Assembly: GCA_012841995.1 (NCBI GenBank)
Contig: DUTQ01000143.1
Location: 1-10,690, forward strand
DNA: 10,690 bases
Direction of reading: 5' to 3'
DNA from: Thermoanaerobacterales bacterium
GTDB lineage: Bacteria; Bacillota; Thermosediminibacteria; Thermosediminibacterales; Tepidanaerobacteraceae
Shown here: positions 1,453-10,321 of the stretch, piece after piece
Layout: each line of letters opens with the position of its first letter
Position numbering within the stretch: the stretch's first letter is position 1
The notes under the pieces: model-generated
What the model saw: only the letters and a program-made list of their open reading frames with translations
Told to the model about the DNA's origin: nothing
Database searches by the model: none
Program-made: the position numbers and the translations under genes

Positions 1453-3222
1453 TTAAGCAATCTCATCTATTGCAGGCAATAGTATTGAGACCTCTGTACC
1501 ATGGCCTGGCGTACTTTGAATTAATATTTCTCCATTATGTGCATTGATAATTTCCTTTGCAATTGAGAGGCCTAGCCCTGTGCCCCCCATTTGACGTGAG
1601 CGCGTCTTATCAACTCTGTAAAATCTTTCAAATATACGGGAAAGATCTTCTTTAGGTATACCAATTCCTGAATCGCGAAACACCACTTTTATATATTTAC
1701 CGTCCTGCTTGAGATATACGTAAATACTGCCACCTTCAGGTGTGTATTTTATAGCGTTACTCATAATGTTTTGAAATACCTGTTCTATCTTATCCCTATC
1801 GGCATAAACCTTAGAAATACCATCAGGTAAATCATAGCGTAATTCTTGTTTTTTCTTCCTTGCATTTACAGCCATCTTATCGATTACATCTTTAAGCACC
1901 ATTTCTAAACTAATTGGGCTCTTTTCCCATCTGGTTTCCCTATTATCAAGCCGTGATAACTCTAGAAGGTCGCTTACGAGTCTTGTCATTCTGTCTGCCT
2001 CATTGTTTACCACATTTAAAAAGCTCTCGGCAAGTTCATGTTCAGTTAAGGCGCCATCTAATAATGTTTCAGTGTAGCTCTTTATCGTAGTCAGAGGTGT
2101 CCTTAACTCATGGGAAACATTTGCCACAAATTCCTTGCGCATATCATCAAGTTTGTGCTGCTTCGTTATGTCTTGCAGCACTATAATCAGACCAACTACA
2201 AGATCCTCCCGTTTAAGAGGTGCTATAATTGATTTTAATATTGCGTTATTTGTTTTTATAAGGATTTCCTTGTCTTCAGGTTTTTCATTGAGATAGTTTT
2301 CAAAATTTACCTTTAACAAAGATTGTAAAAACTCATTGTCTATGTGTTTATTGTTGAGTAAGAGCATCTGCCTTGCAGCCGGGTTGATATGTATAATCTC
2401 ACCCCTGCTGTTTAACGCAATAACACCATCTGCCATATTGAGCAGTATTGCTTCAATTTTTTCCTTTTCATCTGATATCTGCTCCAATGTCTCCTTTAGG
2501 CGAGTTGTGAGGAAATTGAACATCTTAGTTAATTTGCCTATTTCATCATCAGATTTTACCGGTATTTTGTGGTCAAAATCCCCTTTTGCCATCAATGCAG
2601 CTTTTTGTGTAACCTCTTGTATAGGGCCAGTAATTGTTTTTGAAAGGGCATAACCTAAAAATCCAGTTATTACCATTGCAATGACAGTAGCCATAAATAA
2701 TATTGTTTTAATATCGCCTATGGTAGCATATATATTCTCCATTGAAGAGATAAGATAGATAATCCCAACAACCTTATTTCCATTTAAAACCGGATAAGCC
2801 ATATGCATAAATCGCTTTTTAGTAGCAGAATCCTGTCTAATATCCCTGGCATACTCTCCAAGAGCTGCTTTTGTTGTCTCAGGTGTCAAAAGTTTAACTC
2901 CCTGCTGAAACTTCTCTTCCTCAATATCTGTCGTAGATATTACATTGGCATCAGCGTCTAGTATTACTATATACATGATTTCAGAATCAGAACCAGTAAA
3001 GCCTTGAATGAGATTATTTATTTCTTGATATCTGGGAACAGGGTACATATGTCTTTCGATAAAATTAGATATGAGTTGAGCCTTCCCCTCCATGCTGTTT
3101 GAAAGGTTATCTATATGGTATCTTTCCATGGATTGGAGGAGAAATCCCCCTACAACTTCCATGGCAAGCAAAATGAGCAGGATATATATGGAAACTAATT
3201 TCCATTGGATACTCCTGAACAT
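1453..3222 (-). CDS. walK: sensor histidine kinase WalK (YycG)
   Basis: This is a 589-residue membrane sensor kinase with the full WalK architecture. It has TM1 at about 9-30, an extracellular sensor domain at about 31-170, TM2 at about 171-193, HAMP at about 191-245 and a cytoplasmic PAS domain at about 251-352. The dimerisation/phosphoacceptor motif FVANVSHELRTPL follows, with His371. The catalytic domain has an N-box around NIMSNAIKYTP (485-495), DSGIGI (517-522), and GGTGLGL (546-552). All catalytic residues are present. WalK phosphorylates WalR in response to cell-wall state and controls autolysin expression in Firmicutes. The ATG is preceded by AGGGGG at 6 nt, overlapping the walR stop, with only 10 bp between the two genes, so they are cotranscribed. 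No terminator is visible downstream. Confidence 0.95.
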   Translation of the reverse strand: MFRSIQWKLVSIYILLILLAMEVVGGFLLQSMERYHIDNLSNSMEGKAQLISNFIERHMYPVPRYQEINNLIQGFTGSDSEIMYIVILDADANVISTTDIEEEKFQQGVKLLTPETTKAALGEYARDIRQDSATKKRFMHMAYPVLNGNKVVGIIYLISSMENIYATIGDIKTILFMATVIAMVITGFLGYALSKTITGPIQEVTQKAALMAKGDFDHKIPVKSDDEIGKLTKMFNFLTTRLKETLEQISDEKEKIEAILLNMADGVIALNSRGEIIHINPAARQMLLLNNKHIDNEFLQSLLKVNFENYLNEKPEDKEILIKTNNAILKSIIAPLKREDLVVGLIIVLQDITKQHKLDDMRKEFVANVSHELRTPLTTIKSYTETLLDGALTEHELAESFLNVVNNEADRMTRLVSDLLELSRLDNRETRWEKSPISLEMVLKDVIDKMAVNARKKKQELRYDLPDGISKVYADRDKIEQVFQNIMSNAIKYTPEGGSIYVYLKQDGKYIKVVFRDSGIGIPKEDLSRIFERFYRVDKTRSRQMGGTGLGLSIAKEIINAHNGEILIQSTPGHGTEVSILLPAIDEIA

Positions 3223-3232
3223 GACAAGCCCC

Positions 3233-3919
3233 CTAATGTTTTAGAAAATAATAGCCAATTCCTCTCTTGGTCAGAATATACCTGGGATTTGCTGGGTCAT
3301 CCTCCACTTTTTCTCTTAATCTTCTTATGGTCACATCAACTGTTCTGATATCCCCATAATACTCATATCCCCATACTTCCTCAAGCAACTTTTCCCTAGT
3401 AAAAACCTGACCTGCTTGAGTCGCTAAAAACTTCAGTAATTCGAATTCTCGAAATGTGAGATCAAGTGGTTCTCCGTCTTTTTTAAAAACATAGCTCTTC
3501 ATATCAAGCTCTAGGTTTCTTATTTTTATGACTTCATCCTGTACCTTGCCTGATAGGTTTACTCTGCGCAAATTGGCCTTGACTCTTGCCATAAGCTCCC
3601 TCATGCTGAAAGGTTTAGTGATATAATCATCGGCACCAAGCTCAAGACCTAATACTTTATCTACTTCTTCGCCTTTTGCAGTCAGCATAATGATAGGGCA
3701 TGTCAGTTTTTCGCGCAATTTTTTGCAGACTGTAAATCCGTCTTGTTTTGGCAACATAATGTCTAGGAGAATTAAATCTGGATTTTTCCCAAATGCCTTG
3801 TTTATAGCTTCTTCACCATCATATGCTACAGAAACGCTGTAACCTTCCTTTTTTAGATTATATTTTAAGATATCGACAATAGGTTTTTCATCGTCCACAA
3901 CTAATACTTCCTTATTCAT
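3233..3919 (-). CDS. walR: response regulator WalR (YycF), OmpR/PhoB family
   Basis: This 228-residue protein has an N-terminal receiver domain (residues 2-117) with the acidic pair Asp9/Asp10, phosphoacceptor Asp53, Thr80 and Lys102. It is followed by a winged-helix DNA-binding domain (about 130-228) ending [14 protein letters not shown], typical of WalR. Thr101 (YITKPF) lies at the position reported to be phosphorylated by the PrkC kinase on Bacillus WalR. The frame extends upstream, but the start chosen (ATG 3919) has GGGGG at 8 nt and begins the classic [12 protein letters not shown]; upstream starts lack a ribosome binding site. It overlaps the 3' end of the upstream metallopeptidase gene by 8 bp, implying translational coupling. 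WalR binds direct repeats TGTWAH-N5-TGTWAH, three occurrences of which lie in this window. Confidence 0.95.
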
Positions 3920-4802
3920 CTTGAACACCCCCATAAGTGTTATTCGCCATAGCGATATGTTCCCCCTCCATATGAGAAGCATCTACCGATTGAAGGAAGA
4001 TTTCATTAACACAAGCACCGCTTTTTAGCATAGAAAACACATTTTTGATTTCATCTATCTGTCCATCACCAATTAAGGCTTTAGTCATATCAAGGGCTGC
4101 AAGGTAGGCAACCGCTGTATCTGGCAACTCATCAAAACAGTAAAAAATATCATTTAGTTGATACTTTGTTTTTTCATCTACATCAAAATCCATGTCAAGT
4201 GTATACCCGGTTACCTGTTGTTCAACATATTGTGCCACACCTTCGGTAAACCATCTGGAATAATTGCCACCTGTAAGTTCGTCAACAACAAGGTGTGTGT
4301 ATTCATGAACCATTGGGCCTTCTTTAAAATAATCCTTATTGCCCAAGGGTGATTGTAAATGAATAAAGCCCATGTAATATACTCCCTGGACCTTTTCCTC
4401 TTCCGGCCATCCAAAGGCCCTTGCCATACTGCTTTGGTCTGCATAGATCACGACTGGAATTTTGAATCTTGGGAAAAAATCAAACATCTCTCCTATTATA
4501 TCATAAGTTTTTTCTGCTGAAGATGCTACAATTTGTACATTACTTCGATTCTCTTGCTTAAAAAACAGTTTGAAATGTTCGGTTTCTATAACCTCAAATC
4601 CTTTGGCCTTATATAAGTACTCATTAAAATACTTGTATATTAAATTAAAGTTATTTGTAGTGTTTACATCTGTAATTTTATATTTTGGTGTTGATTCAGG
4701 ATAAATTTGGTTCTCGTTGATATTATAATAAAAAAATTCATTTATTGTCAAAAAAACAATTATGCTCAAAAAAAATATTAAGATGATTTTTTTATTTTTC
4801 AT
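3912..4802 (-). CDS. membrane-anchored zinc metallopeptidase (peptidase MA-like, HEYTH)
   Basis: This 296-residue protein has one N-terminal membrane segment (about residues 5-25) and an extracytoplasmic remainder. The zinc motif is H166-E167-Y-T-H170, and WFTEGVAQY supplies the likely third ligand Glu187, 17 residues after the second His. This is the gluzincin arrangement of the peptidase MA-like family. [17 protein letters not shown] and [15 protein letters not shown] strands before the motif also fit that family (here [11 protein letters not shown]). The chosen ATG (4802) has GGGGAGGGGGG just upstream and begins MKNKK plus a hydrophobic stretch; an in-frame ATG at 4853 lacks a site. It is the first gene of the walR-walK operon and overlaps walR by 8 bp. 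The substrate is unknown; processing of an exported or wall-associated protein linked to WalK is a guess from context. Confidence 0.8.
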
Positions 4803-4807
4803 AGTTT

Positions 4808-4853
4808 CCCCCCTCCCCTTATAGATTATATTAAAAAAAATAATCATTTTCAC
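4808..4853 (-). promoter_or_regulatory. candidate promoter of the metallopeptidase-walR-walK operon
   Basis: On the minus strand there is a perfect TATAAT at 4825-4830 and GTGAAA at 4848-4853 (four of six to consensus), separated by 17 bp. Transcription would start near 4818, giving a very short leader of about 16 nt that is mostly the ribosome binding site at 4808-4818. It lies after the terminator at 4867-4887, so it could drive the operon independently of anything upstream. Prediction from motif only. Confidence 0.4.
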
Positions 4854-4856
4854 TGG

Positions 4857-4887
4857 AAAATAAAGAAAAGCGGCTTTATGCCGCTTT
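4857..4887 (-). terminator. rho-independent terminator before the wal operon
   Basis: A perfect 8-bp stem AAAGCGGC/GCCGCTTT (4867-4874 with 4880-4887) has a 5-nt loop. On the minus strand it is followed by a T-rich tail (TCTTTATTTT, 4866-4857). On the plus strand it is followed by CAAAGG, so it works only leftwards. It would end transcripts from the YqhV-like gene and from the WalR-box promoter at 4930-4984. Confidence 0.8.
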
Positions 4888-4923
4888 CAAAGGGGGGATC
4901 GTTTTGTTGTTGCTGACTGCTTC
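4857..4923 (-). ncRNA. candidate C-rich small RNA under WalR box control (or leader/attenuator of the wal operon)
   Basis: A TATAAT at 4930-4935 on the minus strand predicts a start near 4923. The intrinsic terminator at 4867-4887, with its U-rich tail ending at 4857, would end the RNA after about 67 nt. The 5' part (AGCAACAACAAAACGA and flanks) has no evident pairing. It is followed by a run of six C (4892-4897) and UUUG, then the hairpin. No open frame of useful size lies within it. CCCCCCUUU is complementary to AAAGGGGGG in the ribosome binding sites of the M23 and permease genes. C-rich single-stranded seeds are known in Firmicute small RNAs such as RsaE/RoxS. It could instead be an attenuated leader of the metallopeptidase-walRK operon, or untranscribed. 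Confidence 0.35.
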
Positions 4924-4929
4924 AATTTT

Positions 4930-4984
4930 ATTATAATTGAGGAATATTAAAGTATTGTTTCAGTTGTATTACAATTATATTACA
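4930..4984 (-). promoter_or_regulatory. WalR box plus promoter between the YqhV-like gene and the wal operon
   Basis: On the minus strand TGTAAT-ATAAT-TGTAAT (4984-4968) matches the WalR consensus at all fixed positions. A perfect TATAAT lies 32 bp further on (4935-4930), with no recognisable -35 (ACAATA at the 17-bp position). This places the box at about -45 to -61 from the predicted start, a position suited to an activator at a promoter lacking a -35. The box itself also contains a TATAAT at 4974-4979, so WalR could instead block a second weak promoter there. Confidence 0.6.
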
Positions 4985-5009: not shown

Positions 5010-5273
5010 TCATTTTAAACTTGTGCCTATTAGTATAAGTAGCACACCTGCAGCTATTATTAACAGTTTTAAGGAAGAAGAAGCATCAGCCATGCCCACA
5101 AGCCCCAAAAAACTCACACCAATAAATACAAACTGACCTACTAATCCCACAAGTGCATTTACTCTTATAGCTGTTTCAACGCTATTTAACTTTAAAAACA
5201 ATATAGCTGCTAAAAACTCTAGGCTTGCCGAAATGAATCTCAATAAAGCCATATAGCAAAGAATAGGGTCCAT
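5010..5273 (-). CDS. YqhV-like (DUF2619) small membrane protein
   Basis: This 87-residue, very hydrophobic protein has three predicted membrane segments (about 8-28, 40-60 and 66-85) linked by short polar loops. The pattern MALLRFISASLEFLAAILFL...NSVETAIRVNALV resembles Bacillus YqhV (MA.LR..S..E..AA...N....A...N), a DUF2619 protein of unknown function. In Bacillus yqhV sits beside the spoIIIA sporulation operon; here it does not. The ATG has AAGGGG about 10 nt upstream. An alternative start at the internal ATG (residue 8) would still leave the first membrane segment. It lies 138 bp after the ABC ATPase gene and is followed by the terminator at 4867-4887, so it may be the tail of the ABC transcript or a single gene. 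Confidence 0.65.
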   Translation of the reverse strand: MDPILCYMALLRFISASLEFLAAILFLKLNSVETAIRVNALVGLVGQFVFIGVSFLGLVGMADASSSLKLLIIAAGVLLILIGTSLK

Positions 5274-7004: not shown

Positions 7005-7021
7005 TAAAAATCCCCCCCCCT

Positions 7022-8068
7022 TTATTTTGCCCACTGAATTTTTTCCATAGTAGAAGGCTTTCCTTCCCTTTTACCAATTTGAGCAAGCACATTCTCCCAT
7101 GCTATATCTTGAAGATCCTCAGGAATTTTAGAAATATATCCCGACTCTTTCATGAAATTTGCAAAACCCATAATACCATAAGGCGCGGTTGTATAGTTCA
7201 TACCATCTGATTCTAAATACTCTAGTAGCTTTTCTTTCTCAATTTTAAATTCCGGTGCCAATATCTCTGCAGTTTCTTCTTTGTTTTCATTTACCCAGTT
7301 CATAACATCATTTAACCCCATTACAAAAGCGGCATATCCTTTTGGGTTGTTATCGTGATATTGCTGTGTTACTAATGCAACATTAAAATTAAAGTCACCG
7401 CCAAATGCATCAAACCCATCCAGAACCATATGGTACCCAGGTTTTGATAATTCTTCAAAAAGGTATGGCGGTGTTGTGAAATGAGCTACAATATCTTTTT
7501 TAGAAAGCATGGCTTGTGCTCCATCAGGATGTGGTAGTGCAACCAGATTATCATCTAGTGCATTCGGATCTCCCATTACCTTTTCAAGCTCCATCGCAAG
7601 CAATATGTGCTGAATACTCCCTGGAGATGGTAGCGCTATCTTGTGCTCAGGTTTAAAGTCTTTAACACTTTTAATCAAAGGATCGTAAGTTACAAGAGAT
7701 ACTGGTGAGACCGTATACCCTGCTGCTATTTTAGCTTCAACTCCCTTATCACAACCGATGAGAAAGGGCGGTATCCCCATAAATGCTGCATCAAGTTCAT
7801 TTGCTGCCATGGCCTCTCTGACTGCACCTCCGGAGCCAAGGGTCTTCCACTGGACATTAAGGCCATATTTTGAAAAGAAATCTTTCTTTTCTGCAACCAT
7901 AAGAGGTGCATAAACCAAACCAAACTGCTTTGCAACACGAATAGTTTCCAGCCCTTCATCAAGCTTGACCTCACTGTTTTCGCTTTTGCCAGAACACCCT
8001 GCCATAAAGGCAGTTGCTAGAAGCCCCAAAAGTAAAACTACGACAACTTTTTGTGCCTTTTTATACAC
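7022..8068 (-). CDS. substrate-binding lipoprotein of a NitT/TauT-type ABC importer
   Basis: This 348-residue protein has a lipoprotein signal peptide: Lys-rich start, hydrophobic core, and lipobox FMAGC with lipidated Cys25. The mature part is a SsuA/ThiY/NMT1-like periplasmic-type binding domain. Cues are TIRVAKQFGLVYAPLMVAEKKDFF near residue 42 (shown in part), then the GSGGAVREAMAANELDAAFMG ligand-loop region. It would capture substrate outside the membrane and deliver it to the permease. The start is a GTG with GGAGGG about 6 nt upstream. Family members bind nitrate, sulfonates, taurine, bicarbonate, pyrimidine thiamine precursors or aromatic acids; no linked enzyme gene narrows the choice. 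It is the first gene of the three-gene operon and diverges from the DUF441 gene. Confidence 0.9.
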   Translation of the reverse strand: MYKKAQKVVVVLLLGLLATAFMAGCSGKSENSEVKLDEGLETIRVAKQFGLVYAPLMVAEKKDFFSKYGLNVQWKTLGSGGAVREAMAANELDAAFMGIPPFLIGCDKGVEAKIAAGYTVSPVSLVTYDPLIKSVKDFKPEHKIALPSPGSIQHILLAMELEKVMGDPNALDDNLVALPHPDGAQAMLSKKDIVAHFTTPPYLFEELSKPGYHMVLDGFDAFGGDFNFNVALVTQQYHDNNPKGYAAFVMGLNDVMNWVNENKEETAEILAPEFKIEKEKLLEYLESDGMNYTTAPYGIMGFANFMKESGYISKIPEDLQDIAWENVLAQIGKREGKPSTMEKIQWAK

Positions 8069-10082: not shown

Positions 10083-10116
10083 TGTGTTTTCATCCCCCCC
10101 TTTCCTTTGATTTCTA

Positions 10117-10145
10117 TATATACAACGCTGTAACAATTATGTAAT
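10117..10145 (-). promoter_or_regulatory. promoter of the M23 gene, -35 inside the WalR-type array
   Basis: On the minus strand ATTACA (10140-10145, four of six to the -35 consensus) is followed after exactly 17 bp by TATATA (10117-10122). The predicted start near 10110 gives a leader of about 28 nt carrying the ribosome binding site. The -35 is the second repeat of the regulatory array, and the first repeat lies in the spacer. Confidence 0.55.
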
Positions 10146-10167
10146 AAAAATGTAACACATTTGTAAC
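10129..10167 (+). promoter_or_regulatory. four-repeat WalR/PhoP-type operator upstream of the M23 gene
   Basis: On the plus strand TGTAAC (10129), TGTAAT (10140), TGTAAC (10151) and TGTAAC (10162) are spaced exactly 11 bp apart. Each adjacent pair is a perfect WalR consensus match. Relative to the predicted start the array covers about -19 to -57. It reads TGTAAY on the strand opposite to the gene, whereas the two boxes near wal read it on the gene strand. Four 11-bp phased repeats over about -20 to -60 also recall Bacillus PhoP boxes (TTHAYA repeats), so a PhoP-type regulator is the alternative. Confidence 0.75.
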
Positions 10168-10321
10168 ATATATACTATTCGCCACACCTTTGGATTTTCC
10201 TTCTTATTTAAAAAATTATTCTAATACAATATATGGTAAATTACAATGAACTTTTTCTTTATAGATAATAATTCCCACAAATTCCATATTTATACCCACT
10301 TTATAAAGGGTATCTAAATGA
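10168..10321. other. intergenic stretch between the M1 peptidase and the M23 operator
   Basis: This is AT-rich sequence without a convincing open frame or RNA gene. An imperfect inverted repeat (ATACCC...GGGTAT, about 10293-10315) lies just after the M1 stop on the minus strand, but no T-run follows it, so it is not a clear terminator. Transcripts from the M1 gene might read through into the M23 gene. Confidence 0.5.

Follow-up and report, generated by a model that had tools for sequence, protein, structure and literature searches.

The 10,690-nt stretch of DNA analysed here (hereafter the window, in whose numbering all positions are given) carries, 5' of walR, a short candidate unit which, judging from its sequence and conservation, is very likely transcribed and functional, and which we are inclined to read as the gene of a WalR-activated trans-acting small RNA (sRNA) whose C-run seed would pair with G-run leaders. 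The original prediction of a separate gene for a small RNA, with a promoter of WalR type and a C-run that proves conserved, is backed by a comparison of 26 genomes of the class, distributed over the window's own family f1 (taken to be Tepidanaerobacteraceae, 13 genomes) and the families f2 (nine), f3 (two), f4 (one) and f5 (one). In 16 of these 26 genomes, a unit composed of a WalR box, a -10-like hexamer at 32 bp, the core AUCCCCCC(C)UUU and an intrinsic terminator is found upstream of walR, with or without a peptidase gene in between. The elements of the unit, all on the minus strand, and the genes and leaders considered with it are the following.

1453..3222, minus strand: walK sensor kinase gene (Cache_WalK, HAMP, HisKA and HATPase domains)
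3233..3919, minus strand: walR response regulator gene (Response_reg and Trans_reg_C domains)
3912..4802, minus strand: gene of a Peptidase_MA_2 protein (Pfam PF13485, E 1.4e-8)
4803..4820, minus strand: G-rich leader and ribosome binding site of the peptidase gene, AAGGGGAGGGGGGAAACT, a candidate target with 8 contiguous seed pairs
4825..4856, minus strand: promoter proper to the peptidase-walRK unit, CCAGTGAAA ... TATAAT (TATAAT at 4825-4830), conserved in 12/12 peptidase loci
4857..4888, minus strand: intrinsic terminator, recognised by sequence and folding, with the hairpin GAAAGCGGC-ATAAA-GCCGCTTTT at 4866-4888 and a T-rich tract to 4857
4858..4922, minus strand: predicted sRNA gene, RNA of about 61-66 nt with a start placed by inference (match to the covariance model R1, E 1.3e-15, the window itself being a member of the R1 training set)
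4889..4899, minus strand: seed AUCCCCCCUUU, the RNA segment common, besides a terminator, to f1, f3, f4 and f5
4901..4921, minus strand: unstructured 5' segment AGCAGTCAGCAACAACAAAAC, compared over 12 f1 loci, its first 13 nt invariant in f1
4930..4935, minus strand: -10 element TATAAT, 32 bp past the WalR box, from the sequence and the 16-locus comparison
4946..4962, minus strand: further WalR-like half-sites TGAAAC and TTTAAT in the same 11-bp register, apparent when the 16 loci are displayed in register (predicted binding)
4968..4984, minus strand: WalR box TGTAAT-ATAAT-TGTAAT (half-sites 1 and 2), agreeing with TGTWAH-N5-TGTWAH at 12/12 positions
5010-5273, minus strand: DUF2619 gene, the 5' neighbour of the unit on the same strand
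10092..10103, minus strand: M23 leader AAAGGGGGGGAT, a target proposed earlier that the comparison does not support

Along the direction of transcription, the box is followed by two weaker half-sites, TATAAT, AGCAGTCAGCAACAACAAAACGATCCCCCCTTT, a 9-bp hairpin and the T-rich tract, and the candidate RNA has, as far as can be told from sequence, both a promoter and a terminator of its own. The elements of the original prediction (box, TATAAT 32 bp on, unpaired stretch, C-run and terminator) were all located as described on the minus strand, and its observation that the unit holds no open frame also stands. ATG, GTG and TTG are absent 5' of the seed in 12/12 f1 loci. None occurs there in the f4 locus either, and in f3 and f5 a TTG overlaps the first bases of the seed. 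The window RNA is predicted to fold into the terminator only (-13.5 kcal/mol, z = -2.9; 2/200 shuffles equally good), with a mean unpaired probability of 0.95 for the seed; GATCCCCCCTTT, at 4889-4900, stands just 5' of the hairpin. The GCAGTCAGCAACAACAAAACG segment is unpaired in the minimum-energy fold, a 2-bp pairing showing up when a shorter piece is folded. The AAC-repeat part of AGCAGTCAGCAACAACAAAAC varies in length among f1 loci. A search of Rfam 15 at the gathering score returned no match in the window, RoxS/RsaE included, and under permissive settings all hits stayed below the threshold.

By family, the unit was retrieved in 12/13 f1, 2/2 f3, 1/1 f4, 1/1 f5 and 0/9 f2 genomes, 12 of the 16 loci thus coming from one family and being partly non-independent sequences. 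The sole f1 genome without the unit, G003, also lacks a WalK match at E<=1e-100, so that the locus is probably missing from this draft assembly. A search for the peptidase in 61 genomes gave matches in 26, among them 11/13 f1 genomes (G000 included), and at all 11 f1 loci the unit is present 5' of the gene. The model R1 was built from these 11 loci; two apparent 5' pairs in its consensus, one with an apparent double change, proved to be an artefact of an alignment shifted at the 5' end, and the model was used for searching only. It found the RNA in 12/13 f1 genomes, with one strong copy per genome, including an additional f1 genome, G012, in which the peptidase search had no match and the RNA lies directly 5' of walR, and it gave no match in the nine f2 genomes or the four remaining class genomes (f3-f5). 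Across 299 genomes sampled evenly from the phylum and searched with stricter filters and E<=1e-4, all four matches belonged to f1. Two extra R1 hits in G005 (L041 and L042; E 1.5e-4 and 3.3e-4) were discarded, being hairpins without a C-run.

A divergent unit that R1 had missed was found in the f3 peptidase locus L020. The pattern of a WalR box followed after 45-75 nt by CCCCCC occurs in 15/26 class genomes, with 1 match in all for the reversed-pattern control, and the unit of the f4 genome G024, whose box fits at 11/12 positions, was found by reading 5' of walR. TGTWAY half-sites with ATCCCCCC were present in 9 of 398 phylum genomes, i.e. eight class members and G332, and a pattern scan of contigs of named genomes yielded 13 loci, eight of which were taken as f1; the other five (Lewinella, Serratia, Dehalococcoidia, Deinococci and Chloroflexi) and G332 were taken as chance occurrences. 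In f2, other genes precede walR, and neither such a box nor a C-run is present in the upstream stretches examined. The f2 genomes (loci L103-L110, L114) also gave no peptidase homologue (0/9 at E<=0.001).

Mean pairwise identities over the 12 f1 loci, obtained with a script that searched for the blocks (all 12 loci have them), alternate sharply along the unit. In the promoter they reach 0.84 for the box, 0.79 between box and -10, 1.00 for the -10 and 0.53 for the discriminator; in the RNA, AGCAGTCAGCAAC and CGATCCCCCCTTT constitute two invariant 13-nt blocks (1.00 each), with 0.83 for the AAC/A part and 0.60 for the linker; in the terminator, the stem arms are at 1.00 (GCGGC/GCCGC in 12/12 loci), the loop at 0.43 and the T8 at 0.85. 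The flanks are unalignable (0.25 over the upstream 100 nt and 0.29 over the downstream 60 nt), and the conservation that the original prediction had named as its check, with box, C-run and hairpin kept amid variable flanks, is what the f1 loci display at 25-29% flank identity. Such a pattern is the one expected from selection on promoter, seed and terminator. Between families, the core AUCCCCCC(C)UUU is retained and only the seed survives: terminator stems are kept in f3 and f4 with another sequence, the AAC repeat is not present in f3, f4 and f5, and the 5' parts differ, with AAGCAAAGCAACACUUUG in f3, a GGAUCAA/UUGAUCC stem in f5 and an end-to-end pairing of AAACAAAUCA with UGAUUUGUUU in f4. 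The seed is found in 16/16 loci, and its mean predicted unpaired probability is 0.55-0.81 in the four f3-f5 RNAs.

The sequence TGTWAH-N5-TGTWAH, given as the WalR consensus in a passage of PMC9210968, is matched at 12/12 positions in 15/16 loci and at 11/12 in G024. The -10-like hexamer begins 32 bp past the box in 16/16 loci (TATAAT in 12/12 f1, TACAAT in G022, TACTAT in G023, TATACT in G024 and G025) and is unsurpassed in 15 of them; in G023 a hexamer at 35 bp is better by one base, and equally good ones lie at 37 bp in G022 and 38 bp in G024. Perfect TGTWAY-N5-TGTWAY boxes are scarce: samples of G004 and G010 totalling 1.6 million strand-bases contain three, and no -10-like hexamer (5/6 match) follows any of these at 20-45 bp. 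The promoter of the window has four half-sites in all at 11-bp spacing, the fourth ending 10 bp 5' of the -10. According to a passage of PMC10746227, in which "upstream of the -35" is our own reading, WalR sites of S. aureus that lie between the -35 and -10 elements, or downstream of them, go with repression and those located otherwise with activation, in any orientation. Under this rule, a box well 5' of the -10 and a fourth half-site at the -35 position predict activation, and we hold it to be probable that WalR activates the promoter of the candidate RNA.

As a WalR-activated sRNA, the unit would operate as follows. Phosphorylated WalR would bind the tandem half-sites, the last of which would replace the -35 element, and switch transcription on, as their position and conservation suggest; the resulting RNA of about 61-66 nt would end at its own terminator; and the single-stranded AUCCCCCCUUU would pair with G-run Shine-Dalgarno or 5'-leader sequences, leading to a translation block or an altered mRNA stability. 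Action through pairing of the conserved C-run seed at mRNA leaders appears likely. Pairing at the 5' end of the mRNA from the adjacent peptidase-walRK genes might, more conjecturally, provide a negative-feedback arm of WalRK in f1. Since genomes without the peptidase gene still carry the RNA, other targets are expected too.

The pairings first proposed hold literally in the window, with AAAGGGGGG in the M23 and permease leaders and AGGGGGGA in the peptidase leader, and those of M23 and the peptidase fared differently in the comparison. With its 8 contiguous seed pairs, the window peptidase leader forms a duplex of -19.3 kcal/mol, among the best 0.8% of 641 background leaders. At least seven contiguous pairs are available in 9/11 f1 peptidase leaders and 0/1 in f3 (4 pairs in G002, 6 in G011 and 6 in the f3 leader), versus 0/14 leaders of distant homologues from genomes without the box-and-C-run pattern. 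Regarding energy, the seed duplex falls within the best 3.3% of the 641 leaders in 8/11 f1 loci and in the f3 locus, and within 11.1% in 12/12, but the control leaders are G-rich too (10/14 within 11.1%). The contiguous pairs are suggestive of a target in the leader of this gene, then called the HEYTH-peptidase, as first proposed, but kinship confounds the contrast; by energy it gives a one-sided p of 0.026 only, uncorrected for kinship. The control starts, two of which (L017 and L027) are doubtful, were picked by a script favouring G-rich leaders, a bias that works against the contrast. On these sequence comparisons, the peptidase-walRK leader would be the likeliest individual target, a tentative one. 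As 20-24 nt separate the -10 of the peptidase promoter from the start codon in the 12 loci, its G-run must sit at or near the 5' end of the mRNA, where pairing could block initiation or protect against 5'-3' decay, a protection suggested for RoxS by the title of PMC5419742.

For the walR leader, scored in 13 of 15 cases, the picture is mixed: three genomes (G004, G008 and G002) rank within the best 1.1% of the background and four more within 7.6%, and the remaining six range from 12.6 to 43.5%, with a maximum of 6 contiguous pairs in any, so that walR is a possible target for some f1 genomes.

In f1, the M23 leader gives a seed duplex among the best 2.2% of 641 leaders in 9/13 genomes and at 22-28% in the other four (G003, lacking an sRNA hit, was assumed to have the seed of its family). 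As a co-evolving target it was rejected, because this signal, strong within f1, is contradicted outside it: the G-run GGGGGGAU occurs in 4/8 readable M23 leaders of the sRNA-less f2 (8 of 9 were readable, that of G015 not being recovered) and in 0/4 leaders of the sRNA-bearing f3, f4 and f5, contrary to the first proposal. The M23 gene has a promoter, AAGGAAAAT ... GAATA (window 10129-10205, minus strand), which we take to be SigH-like. Reverse-oriented WalR half-sites lie over its expected start, four of them at 11-bp spacing in the window, and are also visible by eye in f1 and f2 relatives (L157-L169, L298-L305, L313); this position predicts repression by WalR. A seemingly internal promoter of walR itself (AAGGAAAAA ... 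CGAATATTA; L003, L004 and L040) resembles that of M23, and its predicted activity may uncouple walRK from the peptidase promoter. In G012 (L040), from a g6 species, AGAAGGAAAAACATAATTTTTGACGAATATAA precedes walR, presumably also a SigH-like promoter. The permease leader or start region (window 7011-7023, minus strand) contains a run of nine G, because of which the start codon is ambiguous.

Target searches on a larger scale were made on samples of 400 kb each from the sRNA-bearing G004 and G010 and the sRNA-less G013 (G+C 0.43, 0.38 and 0.48, respectively). Leaders with at least 8 nt of seed complementarity amount to 8/314, 9/327 and 10/334 in this order (reversed seed: 4, 5 and 7), and those with at least 9 nt to 2, 3 and 0 (reversed seed: 0, 1 and 3); no clear enrichment of seed-matching ribosome binding sites is apparent in G004 and G010 versus G013. 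The whole RNA was compared with shuffles in which C6 was kept (n=20): the real RNA is within 1.2 sd of them in G004 and 1.4 to 2.2 sd stronger in G010, no clear excess in these samples. Predictions for orthologs in the G004 and G010 samples are not correlated (rho 0.04 for 30 pairs only). The pattern AAAGGGGGGN{3,11}ATG gives 62 rows in the 13 f1 genomes versus 19 for the reversed pattern. Behind these sites are 39 distinct ORFs (at least 35 aa, some probably spurious), among which RpoD-, ParB/Noc-, SpoIIAA-, zinc-finger anti-sigma-, CwlD- and YebC-like N-termini were recognised by eye; no common function of the 39 was seen by eye. In four f1 genomes, each from a different genus, ParB/Noc-like genes (by eye; L212, L228, L257, L277) have G-rich leaders, two of which contain a seven-G run, and YidC-like leaders rank high in both G004 and G010. 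From their sequences, the ParB/Noc-like and YidC-like leaders are possible shared targets.

The seed also resembles the 16S rRNA 3' tail, which reads GGAUCACCUCCUUUCU in G004: compared with the tail segment GAUCACCUCCUUU, the seed GAUCCCCCCUUU retains GAUC and UUU and has its middle replaced by C, a replacement that favours G-runs over GGAGG. The likeness is an observation, and any meaning given to it is our inference. It might reflect an RNA acting as a WalR-dosed competing anti-Shine-Dalgarno that would lower initiation on all G-run leaders at once, the 5' end of peptidase-walRK included, and would couple the state of the wall to translation and close the WalRK feedback loop; we regard this as speculative and rather improbable.

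A gene of its own is not the only reading of the unit. In the loci examined it is encoded upstream of, and in the same orientation as, the peptidase gene and/or walR, and it could be an attenuated leader of the peptidase-walRK operon under WalR regulation, in which transcription would end at the hairpin save for read-through. Against this stands the separate promoter conserved between the hairpin and the peptidase gene in 12/12 peptidase loci (CCA(G/A)TGAAA ... TATAAT in 11 f1 and one f3; CAGTGAAA in G022). Moreover, the predicted f1 folds offer no alternative anti-terminator, and the RNA stays when the downstream gene is lost: in G012, G023, G024 and G025, it is kept although no peptidase gene separates it from walR. 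The promoter proper to the peptidase gene and this persistence argue for an independent sRNA gene, and the attenuated leader is improbable. The parts could also be ordinary ones standing side by side, the terminator serving the upstream operon, whose same-strand gene ends at 5010, and the box and -10 having another purpose, with no functional RNA. The unit, however, remains constant beside different upstream neighbours (DUF2619 in the window, M23 in G002 and G008, a transaldolase-like gene, by eye, in G012), and the seed and 5' block are invariant amid unalignable flanks. A peptidase gene with its own promoter, a variable neighbour and an RNA outliving the peptidase gene make both explanations poor, and we give the fortuitous one very little weight. 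Still more remote is a gene for a very short leader peptide. Among f1 loci the AAC repeat varies by 3 nt and the TTG of f3 and f5 overlaps the seed start, as noted above, but the 12 f1 loci and the f4 locus have no start codon 5' of the seed, and the G012 RNA is shorter by one nucleotide, which would break a reading frame.

A WalR-driven RNA may also be real and bind a protein or the ribosome, as a decoy or sponge for which the C-run and AAC repeats would be binding sites. The near invariance in f1 of the entire 5' part, and not of the C-run alone, the unenriched seed matches at ribosome binding sites and the likeness of the seed to the 16S tail are in its favour. Between families, however, only the core of the C-run is kept, f3, f4 and f5 being without the AAC repeat, and C-rich regions of a Firmicute sRNA are reported, in a passage of PMC4409812, to pair with G-rich Shine-Dalgarno sequences; we judge a decoy or sponge unlikely.

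The candidate WalR-activated sRNA resembles in its mechanistic kind what is already known, being csRNA-like. According to the passages of PMC3091779 that concern them, the CiaRH csRNAs of Streptococcus share with it a response-regulator direct repeat (TTTAAG-N5-TTTAAG), a spaced -10, a short RNA with a terminator, an unpaired anti-Shine-Dalgarno region and the link to a two-component system of cell integrity. They differ in that the site is here of WalR type, in their number (five in S. pneumoniae, one strong copy per genome here), and in that the f1 RNA has one hairpin only and a C6 seed instead of anti-SD and anti-AUG stretches. The CiaR site does not occur in the present loci, whose boxes read TGTAAY-N5-TGTAAY, or TTTAAT-N5-TGTTAC in G024; the likeness is one of layout and mechanism, and we do not claim sequence homology. 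RoxS/RsaE, as described in PMC4409812, is likewise a Firmicute sRNA activated by a two-component response regulator (ResD/SrrAB), and its C-rich regions pair with Shine-Dalgarno sequences rich in G, but RoxS has four C-rich regions, another regulator and another fold. In S. aureus, SprX on walR mRNA and an antisense yycF RNA (passages of PMC9266662 and PMC8698359) are also sRNAs tied to WalRK (YycFG); they act on walR/yycF, whereas the RNA considered here would itself be driven by WalR. Among the matches listed from the open-licence literature, none describes an sRNA whose transcription WalR controls; this does not prove that no such report is in print. The terms small RNA, sRNA and noncoding do not occur in the portion of the text considered of the C. 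difficile WalRK paper, and in that of the S. aureus WalKR paper "small RNA" occurs once, in the title of the SprX paper among the references.

WalRK is described in a passage of PMC9210968 as common to all Firmicutes and as essential for viability, which most two-component systems are not. The families considered here offer a comparative system at hand, with a sister family devoid of the RNA (f2) and a genus having one species without the neighbouring candidate target. If our reading is true, the WalRK circuit would gain a post-transcriptional arm in the form of a conserved sRNA driven by WalR.
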